DNA of 64,000 bases from assembly GCF_024713945.1 (NCBI RefSeq), contig NC_134679.1, positions 501,001 to 565,000 of the forward strand, written 5' to 3'. Under the pieces are notes generated by a model. The model saw only the letters and a list, made by a program, of their open reading frames with translations. It made no database searches and was not told the origin of the DNA. Position numbers and translations under genes: made by a program. Numbering within the stretch: position 1 is the stretch's first letter; the number at the start of each line of letters is the position of its first letter. This document shows, piece by piece, positions 4,505-40,569 of the stretch. Source of the stretch: Dermatophagoides farinae (lineage: Eukaryota > Arthropoda > Arachnida > Sarcoptiformes > Pyroglyphidae).

Positions 4505-5892
4505 ATGATAATGAAAATGAAAATGATTTTCATTTTGCCCGTAATATTATTGTTATCCACAAATATCAAACAATCAACAAGTGATTTAATTGATCTACAT
4601 CAAAATCTACCTATTGAACAATTATGGAAAGAAATTGATGTTGTATTACAATTAATGCACATGAATCGTACGATTGGTGATTTAGTACCAACTGCGATTG
4701 ATGATTTTACTAGGCCATTAGAAAATATAACTGGTTGTTATGCATTTGAAGTACATGATCATCATCAAAGTAATCAAACAACATTTATGAATATTTTCAA
4801 TAAAAATCGTCCATTTAGTGATGTTGTTAAATTTTATTATCAAGCATTTCCTCACAATGATATTTCTGCCGATTCAATACGTGCATTATTATTATCAACA
4901 CGTGAAATTATCAATCTGTGTATGATATTCGAGAATAGAAGACAACATCAATCAGATGAAAACTCGATGAAATTTGGTTTTACAGAACTTTCTGATAAGG
5001 TAAGATTTTTTTTTAATTTTGGAATTCATTCCATTGATTGATTTTCAATGTGTTCAATTAGAATGATGGCTATATGAAAAATATGCAAGGACTTTTAACG
5101 GATGAAATTTATACGCCAGTAACGACATTATATTATCTTTGGTATAATGGCATGATTCGGCCATCAACACAATCAACAGCGTTGGATGGCTCAAATCCTG
5201 AATGCGTTCGTTTTGTCGATAATTTACCGGAATCATTTGATTGGCGTGATAAGAATGTTGTTACCGATGTTAAAAATCAAGGTGAATGTGGTAGTTGTTG
5301 GGCATTCGCCACTGTTGGATCGATTGAATCAGCTTATCTTATTCATAGTAATATGACAAAAGATCAAATTAATCTGAGTGAACAAGAATTGATTAGCTGT
5401 GCACGTAGTAATGGTTGCCACGGTGGAACATCAACGTTATCATTTGATTTTGTTCGCCATCATGGTTTAACTTCGGGACAAGTTATGCCTTATCAAGCTA
5501 AAGATGGTAATGGTTGTTTACATGCACCACCACCATTGGCAGGTATTCGTGGTTATTGTGTTCGAAGTGAAATACGTTATTCAAATCAATATTCATCTGA
5601 ATATCTTACCGATGATGATATTAGAAATACATTAGTATCATATGGTCCACTTTATATTGGTGTTAATGCTGATAGATTATCAAGAAATTATCGTGGCGGT
5701 ATCATTGATGATGATACATGTTCAATGCGTGTTAATCATGCTGTATTATTGGTTGGTTATACACCGGATTCATGGATATTGAAAAATTCCTGGGGTAAAA
5801 CATGGGGTGAACAACAGGGCTATTTTCGTATTGCACGTGGTAAAAATATGTGCGGTATCAATACAGAAATTGCTTATCCATTAGTGGTTTGA
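4505..5892 (+). CDS. Papain-like (C1A) cysteine protease, mite group 1 allergen relative
   Basis: Two exons, 4505-4999 and 5062-5892, joined in phase 0 over a 62-nt GT-AG intron, encode 441 residues. The start is the first ATG of a cluster of in-frame ATGs and is followed by a hydrophobic signal peptide (about residues 1-20). The mature protease begins near residue 210-222. It shows the oxyanion Gln238 and catalytic Cys244 in NQGECGSCWAF, His391 in NHAVLLVGY and Asn407 in LKNSWGKTWG. The GCHGG motif and paired cysteines are typical of the C1A fold. The propeptide is unusually long, about 190-200 residues, whereas group 1 mite allergens have roughly 80. A stretch around MKFGFTELSD resembles the end of an I29 inhibitor domain, but the rest is divergent. 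It is probably a secreted digestive protease, a paralogue rather than the classic group 1 allergen itself. A transposon begins 60 bp after the stop. Confidence 0.93.
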
Positions 5893-36435: not shown

Positions 36436-37463
36436 TATACGATAAAACATTAATGAAATAATTAAAACCAAAATGGTTGAATAACTAATAATTGGATAAT
36501 TGATTGTAAATGCTGATGAAACGATGCTTTCCACATTATTCGATGGTTCATGTTGTGGTTCTTCTACATCCGATGAATTTTCATTTCCTTGATCTTCCGA
36601 CGGATTTTCATTGCCATTACCACCACCACTATCACTACCGTTATCATCTCCATTTTCGACATCTTCAACACCACCATCATCACCGCTTTCTCCTTCATTA
36701 TCTTCCTCCTGTGATGAATAAAAATATGCATACAAAATTGGATTGATGTAAAAAAACAAATTCACTGCATATCAATCATACATACGCCATCAGCAGCAGC
36801 ACCACCAACAGTTATGCCTAATGGAATTTTATCCGAATCAATATGAAGCCAAAAATGTTTTGCATCAATAGCGACAGTAGATAGAAATAAAATTTCATTG
36901 TTCATTGTTGAATCAGCTGGAAACCAAAATGCAGATACACGTTTTTTTGGACTACTATTCGAATGTGTCCATGTATTCTTGTATTATTATTCACAAATCA
37001 AAATGAGAGAGAAAAAAAAATACGAATGATTGATTCTTTGATGATAAAATGATTCTGTACTTACATTTCCTTCCATATTATTTTCATTACAAGTAAATGA
37101 ACGTGTTTGATTTGAATCTATTGGTACGAATGTACCGTCGGCAATCATTTCTGGATTATTAGCCATACGTGCTTGAACAATAAAACCACGAAATACTTGA
37201 TGATCATTATGGGAATGAATTTCCACATGAATGAATTCTTCTTCATTCATATATGGATAAAGGGTAACATTGAATAGAAATGGATTCGTTGATTTTGGCT
37301 GCGATTGAATATTGTTTCCATGTCTTGGTTTCAACGTTATACATGATTCAATTGGTGCACCATTACGACGACCATTTACAAATAACGAATCATTATTTGA
37401 GAATAGAATTATTAAACATAATATCAAAGCACACTTAAGCGGTATTACACGATGATAAAACAT
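36424..37463 (-). CDS. Reeler-domain membrane/GPI-type protein with acidic tail
   Basis: Three exons on the minus strand: 37463-37065, 36977-36786 and 36708-36424, all phase 0, giving 291 residues. A signal peptide (about residues 1-30) is followed by a Reeler domain spanning exons 1-2: GAPIESCITLKPRHG, then FRGFIVQARM, GTFVP, TRSFTCNEN and NTWTHSNSSPKKRVSAFW. Reeler domains occur in reelin, ferric-chelate reductase-like proteins and arthropod noduler/defence proteins. Exon 3 encodes a highly acidic Asp/Glu/Gly/Asn tail of about 65 residues. A C-terminal hydrophobic segment runs to the very end, which suits a GPI signal or a single membrane anchor. It may act at the cell surface in immunity or adhesion. 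Its coding end overlaps the coding end of the linear ubiquitin ligase by 12 bp on the opposite strand. Confidence 0.85.
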
Positions 37464-38256
37464 GATTCTAGATATATCGATATCTTAAAAATGAACCAAA
37501 AAAAAAAATCAGATAAATCGTTGTCGATGAAAGTCCGCCATCCATCTACTATAGTGAAACTAATCTGAATATATGAAAATGAAGCACAATTTATTTGTTG
37601 TTTTTTTCATGAATCACCAAAAAATCATTTGTCATTGGCCGTCATAGATTATAAACAAGCAAAACGTTTATTTATTTATTTATTTTACTAATTAGACATC
37701 AACGTTTCCTTTTCTTTTGATTTTTCGTTTGTTTCAACAACAACAAAAGCAAAAATTTCAATGTTTAAAAAAAACATTCAAAATGATTATTTTCATTATT
37801 GCAAGGAAATAATCAATATTTGTTATTGTTGTTGGTTTTTTTTTTCTTCAGACTTTATATATTTCAAATTTCAAAGGAAACGACCAATACAATATTCTGA
37901 TAACAATATATATGTATTTATTTTTTTCTACAGATGATAATTTTAGATTTGAGAAATTGTGGAAAAAAATTGCTTATGGCTTAATTATGATCATTTTGTT
38001 ATGAATGAACAATAATTATTATATTGTTGTTGTATTTGAATCAAATGATACAATTTTTTCATTAATCCAAAAACAAAATAAAGTTTATTTATTTCAGAAT
38101 GTATAGATTAAACATATATGTGTGAATTATTATTCAATTAATACAATTGTTAATCATTGAATTATCGATTATAAAAATGAATGAAATGATGATGTGGATA
38201 TATATGATATGAATTGAAATATTGATTAAATATTCGATAAATTTTCGATGCTGTGT
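37464..38256. other. Intergenic: Reeler gene promoter side and 3' flank of the viral-like ORF
   Basis: This AT-rich stretch separates two minus-strand genes. A minus-strand AATAAA at 38094-38099 probably serves the viral-nucleoprotein-like ORF (stop at 38257). I see no gene inside. Confidence 0.55.
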
Positions 38257-39210
38257 TTACAAGGTGGCAAAACCACGTTCAAATTCTTCGTAGATATCTA
38301 CTGGTGGAATTAAATCCATTTTCATACTTTCCCGTATAGTGGCAAACTCTTTACAGCAAGCTTCAATCTGCTGGACGAATACTTTCCAATTGTCCTCAGT
38401 CTGCATAGCTTTCAATTTTCGCCAGAAATTCCATCGTCTTGTTTCCAAAATGTAATTACTAAACATACTAGACGATACGTAATTAATGGCATGTCTCATT
38501 GCCTGACGCTTTTCTTTCTGTCCCATAACTTTGAAAATAATATTGAACGAAGCCAATCGAGCACATTCACCTAGGTAATGGAACTCGGATGGAATCAGGG
38601 ATGATACAGCAATACAATGGAAAGGAGATGGTATGTTGGCATTGATATCTTCTGTATCATGCTGCATAGACATACACCAAACTTCGGGTATCAAAAGCAT
38701 AGCAAGATTAACCGTGAACAAAATACGATTGTTTCTATCATTCCAAGAAATGACCAGTTTTGAAGTTACCTCATGTACAAGTTTTCGGCCCTCTTCTGAC
38801 ATTTTAGCCATGAATTTATGGAATATTGTGCCTCGCGTCGCCACCAGCGCTGCAGCGGTACCCACCGCTTTAAAATAATTTGGCAATTTTTCGAAATCTA
38901 TGCGTTGCAATTTAATAGGATCATCATTGTAAAGGAGAGGATAAAAAGCAACGTCCGAATCCTCATCTTCAAGGAAGTCTTTAGCTGTCTCTTCAAGGAG
39001 CGAACAAAGCTCATATCGATTACCCATAAGCCAATCCGATAGGCATTCTGATACAAAACCAAGATTGTTTGGGTCAATTCCAATGGCGAATTTAGTGTAA
39101 AAATCATAAGTTCCATCAATAGAACTAGAGCCAGAGCTTTCACTTTTTTCACTGCCTTTGGCCTGAGTGGCTTGCTCAGCTTGTTTTCGATCGTTTGGTT
39201 GAGACATCAT
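38257..39210 (-). CDS. Endogenous phenuivirus-like nucleoprotein ORF, intact
   Basis: A single uninterrupted frame of 317 residues without introns; the frame is open to 39222 but the first ATG is at 39210, with another at 39207. An N-terminal Ser/Glu/Lys-rich tail of about 35 residues precedes a helical body. The body resembles nucleoproteins of phlebovirus/tenuivirus-type bunyaviruses (Phenuiviridae): the KMSEEGRKLV segment, a hydrophobic helix near LFTVNLAML, and a late segment SSSMFSNYILETRRWNFW fit the family in order. The match is by eye. In a virus this protein coats genomic RNA. In a mite chromosome it would be an endogenous viral element, perhaps retained by the host. Codon use is richer in G/C than the neighbouring mite genes. 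Upstream lie a TATA box and a perfect heat-shock element. An unrecognised heat-inducible mite protein is the alternative. Confidence 0.62.
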   Translation of the reverse strand: MMSQPNDRKQAEQATQAKGSEKSESSGSSSIDGTYDFYTKFAIGIDPNNLGFVSECLSDWLMGNRYELCSLLEETAKDFLEDEDSDVAFYPLLYNDDPIKLQRIDFEKLPNYFKAVGTAAALVATRGTIFHKFMAKMSEEGRKLVHEVTSKLVISWNDRNNRILFTVNLAMLLIPEVWCMSMQHDTEDINANIPSPFHCIAVSSLIPSEFHYLGECARLASFNIIFKVMGQKEKRQAMRHAINYVSSSMFSNYILETRRWNFWRKLKAMQTEDNWKVFVQQIEACCKEFATIRESMKMDLIPPVDIYEEFERGFATL

Positions 39211-39396
39211 AAGAAAATGCACAAATTTTTTTCTTTATGAAATATAGATCAATCAACTTTGACAAATTGAATGTGGATGTAAATGAAAAAAGCACGACAC
39301 TTGAAGGTTTAGTAATTGAAAAATAATAATAAAAAATGTGACGTGTAATGAGCAAGATTTTGTCGGTGATGTAATCACATCCAACAGTGGGGAAGA

Positions 39397-39405
39397 GTTT
39401 TTATA
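39397..39405 (-). promoter_or_regulatory. TATA box upstream of the viral-nucleoprotein-like ORF
   Basis: On the minus strand the sequence reads TATAAAAAC, about 190 bp before the ATG at 39210 and 18 bp after the heat-shock element. The predicted start site near 39370 gives a 5' leader of about 160 nt that is A/T-rich, as in heat-shock genes. Confidence 0.65.
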
Positions 39406-39422
39406 CCTTTGGACAGTGCTTT

Positions 39423-39435
39423 TTCGAGAATGTTC
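39423..39435 (-). promoter_or_regulatory. Perfect heat-shock element (GAAnnTTCnnGAA)
   Basis: On the minus strand the sequence is GAACATTCTCGAA, three perfect alternating nGAAn units, the binding site for trimeric heat-shock factor. It sits immediately upstream of a TATA box and points at the intronless ORF below 39210. Confidence 0.75.
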
Positions 39436-39904: not shown

Positions 39905-40569
39905 ATGTCTCGAAGTCGTGCTTTGAGTTTATCTTCCATTATAAGTGGTTCTGGTGGTGGTAATGATATGATCACCATCGAATCGAATCATATTGGCGTT
40001 CGTAATGCACAACATCTTACGATTGCTGGTGGATTCTTGGATTTTGCACTATTTGTGGCCGATGTTGAACATTTAAAATATTTACTGGATGTTGGTTCAG
40101 ATCATGTTAAATATTATATATTATTAATCATTTTGCTTTGTGCTTCATTAATTTTACAGGTAAATTTTTGTTTTATTGAATTGAAAACAAATTTGTTAAT
40201 TTCCATTTCCAGTTAGTCGTAGTATTTCTCATGTTTATCGTTGGCTTTAAGAATAATAAACCACGAGCAACATATCAACGTTCGTTTAAGAAATCCAATA
40301 ATGATAAAACGGGTGAAGAATTATCATCGAACCAAAATGGACAACAACCATCATCATCATCGACATCGATAAGTGTACCGTTTAATGAGAATCAAATGGT
40401 TTCCATTAATGACAAGGAAAAAGTCGATACCATTAATCATTTGACAATATGTTTGGTTACAATAATTGCAATATTGAATGTATTCATCACTGTGTTTGGT
40501 GATCGATCATCAATCAATTTTGAACATATGAAACATTTATCCAATCATACTGATAATATATCGATTTAA
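39905..40569 (+). CDS. Ninjurin family protein
   Basis: Two exons, 39905-40159 and 40213-40569, joined in phase 0 over a 53-nt intron, give 203 residues. The segment from about residue 30 (NAQHLTIAGGFLDFALFVADVEHLKYL) contains the amphipathic helices of ninjurins. The first membrane helix (YYILLIILLCASLILQ, continuing LVVVFLMFIVGF) spans the splice site, and the second is HLTICLVTIIAILNVFITVFG. Ninjurins are small plasma-membrane proteins in adhesion and, for NINJ1-type members, membrane rupture during lytic death. The loop between the two membrane helices is about 60 residues, Ser/Asn/Lys-rich and much longer than in most ninjurins. Paralogue type cannot be assigned. Confidence 0.9.

Follow-up and report, generated by a model that had tools for sequence, protein, structure and literature searches.

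A candidate endogenised nucleoprotein gene with heat-shock-type promoter elements in a dust mite genome

Does a dust mite genome carry an intact gene captured from a virus related to the phleboviruses, and does this gene stand under heat-shock control? The question is raised by an open reading frame (ORF) of 317 codons found in the window analysed here, that is, the whole stretch of 64,000 nucleotides corresponding to C3:501001-565000 of a 62.4-Mb genome assembled in 22 contigs, of which C3 accounts for 7.18 Mb. A first-pass annotation, made from the letters of the sequence, had read this ORF as a bunyavirus nucleoprotein (N) placed behind a heat-shock promoter.

The reading frame and its genomic setting

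Re-examination of the locus bore out the uninterrupted, intronless frame of 317 residues described in the first-pass annotation, which runs on the minus strand from the ATG at 39210 to the stop codon at 38257-38259, as well as the perfect three-unit heat-shock element (HSE), whose coordinates were exact (Table 1). The claimed succession of HSE, TATA box and A/T-rich leader in promoter order was likewise found, with 17 nt between HSE and TATA box and 195 nt between TATA box and ATG; the box itself is present, its span being corrected from 39397-39405 to 39398-39405. At local base composition, the probability that ORF 38257-39210 would remain open by chance is about 3e-10. Its G+C content reaches 39.5%, the flanks having 27% (5') and 22% (3'), and a profile in 100-base steps gives 34-44% inside the ORF vs 17-33% on both sides.

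Table 1. Coordinates of the ORF, its promoter-like elements, its neighbours and its relatives in the same genome (window positions unless a locus is named)
Feature	Position	Strand	Remarks
Single-exon ORF, 317 codons (317 aa)	38257..39210	-	ATG at 39210, stop at 38257-38259, no interruption
Heat-shock element TTCGAGAATGTTC	39423..39435	.	Three perfect units, without a fourth
TATA box TATAAAAA	39398..39405	-	HSE 17 nt upstream, ATG 195 nt downstream
Predicted 5' leader, ca. 165 nt, A/T-rich	39211..39375	-	Start placed ca. 30 nt from the TATA box
Polyadenylation signal AATAAA	38088..38093	-	Downstream of the ORF stop
Codons of residues 126-136 (R126 ... K136)	38803..38835	-	Align with the phlebovirus RNA-binding motif R64/K67/K74
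Reeler ORF	36987-37463	-	Neighbour of the 317-aa ORF
Ninjurin ORF	ATG at 39905	+	Neighbour on the HSE side, divergent from the 317-aa ORF
Intact 264-aa paralogue	C7, L002:1330-2124		25% identity to the window protein, E 3e-14
Fragment, C-terminal motif only	L003:1504-1647, C10 near 24.4 kb

The ORF is embedded in host DNA in the manner of a non-retroviral endogenous viral element, being flanked by the host genes Reeler and ninjurin within the 7.18-Mb contig and occurring as a single copy: apart from one match of less than 40 bases, the 2-kb region around it is unique in the genome. A repeat search revealed no convincing target-site duplications or poly-A tracts around the ORF. Elsewhere in the window, positions 5074-5892 harbour an ORF for a papain-family cysteine protease (Pfam Peptidase_C1, E 1e-60), which we take to resemble a paralogue of group 1 mite allergens.

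Relatives of the protein and the nucleoprotein question

A search of 5.8 billion proteins, restricted to shared 5-residue words, returned two relatives of the window protein. The first, P0001, is 99% identical over the same length of 317 aa (3/317 residues differ) and derives from a 1761-base contig. The second, P0002 (268 aa), is a mosaic, with a start of about 28 residues near-identical to the window protein and a last stretch of 62 residues identical to it, separated by a divergent and shorter middle; the copies may have undergone gene conversion, or the assembly may be chimeric. Within its own genome, the family comprises at least three scattered copies, namely the window ORF, the intact paralogue on contig C7 (hereafter C7) and a fragment on C10. 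The latter was matched with an E-value of 0.09 by the window protein and 0.002 by C7 in whole-genome searches, and with an E-value of 3e-7 by C7 when that locus was searched alone. C7 has a counterpart in D. farinae (HUG17_8680, designated P0003) at 87% identity, from which about 22 internal residues of C7 are missing, either because of an intron in the gene model or through true absence. It is on this identity that the genome is assigned to the genus Dermatophagoides. A profile search covering 3676 candidates added no relative beyond P0001-P0003, three scans of viral contigs yielded none, and tblastn against phages returned nothing. Since C7 and the window ORF share 25% identity, they would represent separate captures, the window ORF having probably been acquired independently of, and more recently than, the C7 relative common to D. 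farinae.

Support for a nucleoprotein origin came from comparisons with proteins of known structure. With profile A1, built from the window protein, P0001, P0002 and C7, the nucleoproteins 3ouo and 3lyf ranked first and second of 177,635 PDB sequences (E 0.21 and 0.23), in a collinear alignment of profile positions 70-257 to positions 21-220. When the window protein was used alone, the nucleocapsid 4j4w was the third of six PDB matches (E 0.95). All three structures come from phleboviruses. The piece matched in 4j4w is 30 residues long, with 14/30 identities, and covers the RNA-binding motif; against this piece the window protein scores 63 vs a shuffle mean of 25, a value reached by 0/5000 shuffles, which is not an unbiased p-value as the piece had been picked by the search. 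In RVFV N, the patch that binds RNA is described as consisting of R64, K67 and K74 (PMC3093367). Two of these three basic residues are present in the window protein (R126 = R64 and K136 = K74) and the position of K67 is occupied by I129, according to the alignment with an E-value of 0.95. Because the family had been named in the first-pass annotation before any search, these ranks were given more weight than their E-values.

Other searches gave a different picture. The first-pass annotation had looked to a profile search against the phlebovirus/tenuivirus nucleocapsid family, and this search was negative: none of the four proteins scanned (window ORF, P0001, P0002 and C7) matched Pfam PF05733 (Tenui_N) at any E-value up to 10, and a whole-genome search with the same family revealed no match at the family loci and one sub-threshold match elsewhere. 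Given this Pfam result, the protein was not filed in Tenui_N. No family was reached at cut-off by the ORF or its relatives in Pfam, NCBIfam and PHROGs, and a weak match to DUF4070, which at E 0.023 falls short of the cut-off, was dismissed as noise. Neither C7 alone, in two PDB searches, nor profiles A3 and A5 retrieved a nucleoprotein from PDB. Against the nucleocapsid piece, the scores of the relatives were reached by 1316/5000 shuffles for C7, 802/5000 for P0003 and 4958/5000 for P0002, the last of which lacks the corresponding region; aligned at their best to this piece, C7 and P0003 have the same RG pair placed on RG. Two AlphaFold models were all-helical, but had a mean pLDDT of 38 and 37 and were unusable; four fold searches with these poor models included no nucleoprotein among the matches listed, and matches from such models are meaningless. 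The bunyavirus polymerase family PF04196 had no match in the same genome, and control genomes were equally blank, so that this result does not establish absence.

Of the resemblance to phenuivirus nucleoproteins claimed at the outset, the top two PDB ranks (E ca. 0.2) and the 14/30 piece thus stand, with weak support from profiles and no match in Pfam. Similarly, the proposal of an endogenised bunyavirus nucleoprotein kept open retains the intact frame in host DNA but not a significant homology to viral N. An ancestry among phlebovirus-type nucleoproteins is the best lead, likely and not proven, and viral ancestry of the ORF as such is, in our assessment, probable.

With viral N E-values of 0.2 or higher and several searches devoid of nucleoproteins, the likeness might also have arisen by chance, in which case the ORF would belong to a fast-evolving, mite-specific cellular family without viral ancestry and might perhaps be a true heat-shock gene. 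TATA-like boxes at both intact members of the family, together with a codon choice compatible with heat-shock genes (see below), would suit such an origin. Yet chance would then have brought the very family predicted beforehand to the top pair of 177,635 PDB sequences, in a match that spans the RNA-binding motif, and no family or wider distribution emerged from Pfam, NCBIfam, PHROGs or the 5.8 billion proteins. We regard a purely cellular origin as possible rather than probable.

Codon usage and promoter-like elements

The codon usage of the ORF sets it apart from its surroundings. Its GC3 is 0.355, vs 0.15-0.22 in 14 other ORFs of the window and 0.215 in C7, and its host-usage score of -1.211 per codon is poorer than that of all 14 window ORFs (-0.954 to -0.704, leave-one-out scores); C7 fits host usage, with -0.925 per codon. 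High GC3 was considered as a foreign sign by itself, but this criterion is undercut by control genes, several HSP70s having GC3 values of 0.33-0.39. Scored by the codon usage of 12 coding stretches from heat-shock genes, the ORF reaches -1.079, as good a fit as that to a G+C-only model (-1.080), and this weakens the codon argument. Two genes of this set deviate more from host usage than the ORF (L022, -1.427; L024, -1.334). Four HSP70s of like GC3 (L021, L026, L028 and L031; -0.887 to -0.958) are clearly closer to heat-shock usage than the ORF is, with the stop codons contained in L026, L028 and L031 skipped during counting. When the longest ORF per locus was compared, with a heat-shock set that contained at least two unrelated ORFs (L033 and L041), 20/21 host genes beat the ORF under host usage, the exception being L037. 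The codons found off host usage in that comparison, chosen after inspection, were GAG (9/26, p 0.0006), CAG (7/11, p 0.001) and TTA (1/25 Leu codons, p 0.0002). Overall, the codon usage of the ORF is unlike that of its neighbours and not typically that of heat-shock genes; this weak sign suits a young capture, an expression-related cause being also possible.

Regarding the upstream elements, the ORF displays features of genes regulated by heat-shock factor (HSF), namely three contiguous HSE units near a TATA box and an intronless coding region. The three-unit HSE has 1425 matches in 62.4 Mb, and its occurrence by chance within 250 bp upstream has a p-value of ca. 0.006 for a given ORF and ca. 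0.09 for any of the 17 long ORFs of the window. The motif is informative in this mite genome, since a perfect HSE lies within 400 bp upstream at 4/21 HSP70/HSP20 loci (L040, L046, L066 and L068; p ca. 4e-5 vs background), these 21 being the loci taken as gene starts, set by script and in some cases approximate, among the 38 matches listed. A perfect three-unit HSE upstream is a feature that the window ORF shares with HSP70 (L040 and L046), small HSPs (L066 and L068) and HSP90 (L008, identified by Pfam HSP90, E 9e-110). At the HSP70 locus L046, the identical 13-mer is found 282 bp upstream of the HSP70 ORF in the opposite orientation relative to the gene, and the TATA-HSE layout of HSP90 is the same as that of the window ORF. 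Heat-shock genes encode chaperones, whereas the window protein has no match to any chaperone family.

Genome-wide, TATAAAA-HSE pairs in the right direction and with the HSE orientation of the ORF amount to 14, vs 13.8 expected, with 10 in the wrong-direction control of the same HSE orientation and 11 right-direction pairs with the other orientation. The TATA-HSE layout therefore occurs at chance frequency, without enrichment, and the idea that it proves a heat-shock gene on its own was rejected on these counts (14 right-way, 10 wrong-way, 13.8 expected). Position is more telling than layout. The 14 sites were inspected for unspliced ORFs up to about 1.5 kb away, an approach that would miss genes with short first exons; at 2/14 sites, those of HSP90 and the window ORF, a long unspliced ORF is judged to begin some 200 nt behind the TATA box, in what has the appearance of a gene start. 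The L013 site, which precedes a 270-aa TRM5-type ORF, and the L012 site, about 480 nt before a 328-aa ORF, were each judged to be inside a gene. Around 2.83 Mb on contig C5 (L016, L017 and L075), two TATA-HSE sites of identical sequence occur in opposite orientation near an inverted duplication, whose ORFs resemble reverse transcriptases on inspection by eye.

From its sequence, the upstream region of the ORF lends itself plausibly to a heat-shock reading, and the ORF is presumably transcribed; the step from there to a heat-inducible ORF is tentative, and we would not count on it.

The chance frequency of TATA-HSE pairs also agrees with a neutral young viral insertion, in which a captured N gene would be open merely through recency and the HSE and TATA box would be there by chance or as host elements. 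The divergence in codon usage from the neighbouring genes points the same way, as do the absence of a D. farinae orthologue of the window copy among the proteins found and the 1 kb upstream of C7, where a TATA-like box is present and no HSE occurs within one mismatch. However, neutrality does not readily account for a complete TATA, HSE, leader and poly(A) layout in the correct order, nor for a near-identical protein in another assembly (P0001), and C7, intact and with its D. farinae counterpart at 87%, indicates that such genes can be kept. A neutral insertion is tenable as a minority view.

Finally, the owner of the HSE might be ninjurin, the divergent neighbour, or both genes might share it, the ORF having landed beside an existing stress element. 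HSEs function in either orientation, and the ninjurin ATG follows 482 bp downstream of this one; nevertheless, the TATA box situated 17 nt from it faces the ORF, while the TATA-like sites of ninjurin itself are about 300-370 bp away. Ownership by ninjurin, sole or shared, is, on balance, unlikely.

Proposed reading and known systems

Assembly contamination by viral cDNA, named as a refuting outcome in the first-pass annotation and favoured by the 99% identical protein on a separate 1761-base contig, is highly improbable, given a single-copy locus of genuine mite DNA lying among mite genes in a 7.18-Mb contig with A/T-rich surroundings.

The explanation that we favour, by a modest degree of belief, is that the ORF is an endogenised phlebovirus/phenuivirus-type nucleoprotein gene, captured in the Dermatophagoides lineage, which is complete and has a promoter usable by RNA polymerase II in front of it. 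Such a gene would have been captured as DNA into unique host sequence between Reeler and ninjurin. An HSF trimer would occupy the HSE (39423-39435), and transcription, positioned by the TATA box at 39398-39405, would begin near 39375. The mRNA, intronless and about 1.3 kb long, would end near the AATAAA at 38093 and be translated into an RNA-binding protein. One conceivable role of this product is interference with the ribonucleoproteins of related viruses, another is that of a host RNA-binding protein. That the ORF has retained a function such as interference with related viruses is rather doubtful, and the full scenario, in which a mite captured a bunya-type nucleoprotein gene and put it under HSF control to yield a stress-inducible antiviral or cellular RNA-binding protein, is less probable still.

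If true, such a heat-controlled capture would, together with the C7 gene, mean that dust mites have domesticated viral nucleoproteins more than once. piRNAs are one of the routes by which RNA-virus insertions are thought to protect arthropods. In house dust mites, the piRNA pathway was reported as not found (PMC5805368), and a piRNA role for the ORF is therefore unlikely. Intact viral-type N genes in a host of this kind would suggest a protein-based rather than a small-RNA-based use of viral insertions, and a heat-shock promoter on such a gene would tie stress to this use. In the portions of the open-licence PMC literature consulted, no insertion of a nucleoprotein gene is named for Dermatophagoides, nor any viral insertion driven by a heat-shock promoter; were heat control shown, its combination with a viral insertion would be new to our knowledge.

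The phlebovirus N fold is two-lobed and all-helical (5H+3H). The mite protein resembles phlebovirus/phenuivirus nucleoproteins by a weak, collinear match across most of the core and by the equivalents of R64 and K74, but differs from them by the lack of a Pfam match, the isoleucine (I129) at the position of K67, an N-terminal arm that is S-rich and longer, and a C-terminal portion extending beyond the aligned core. Among captured nucleoprotein genes, the endogenous bornavirus-like N genes of mammals were also kept open, in a different virus group and a different host. Endogenous viral genes with open frames are already known in arthropods (PMC10636211, PMC11512250). Examples are insertions of rhabdovirus N in Tetranychus urticae (PMC11512250) and the toti-like endogenous viral element NlToEVE14 of planthoppers (PMC10636211); in the passages describing them, no heat-shock promoter is mentioned for either. 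Both are, like the mite ORF, long open frames of viral type in host DNA, derived from other types of virus, and for NlToEVE14 a role is described as demonstrated (PMC10636211).
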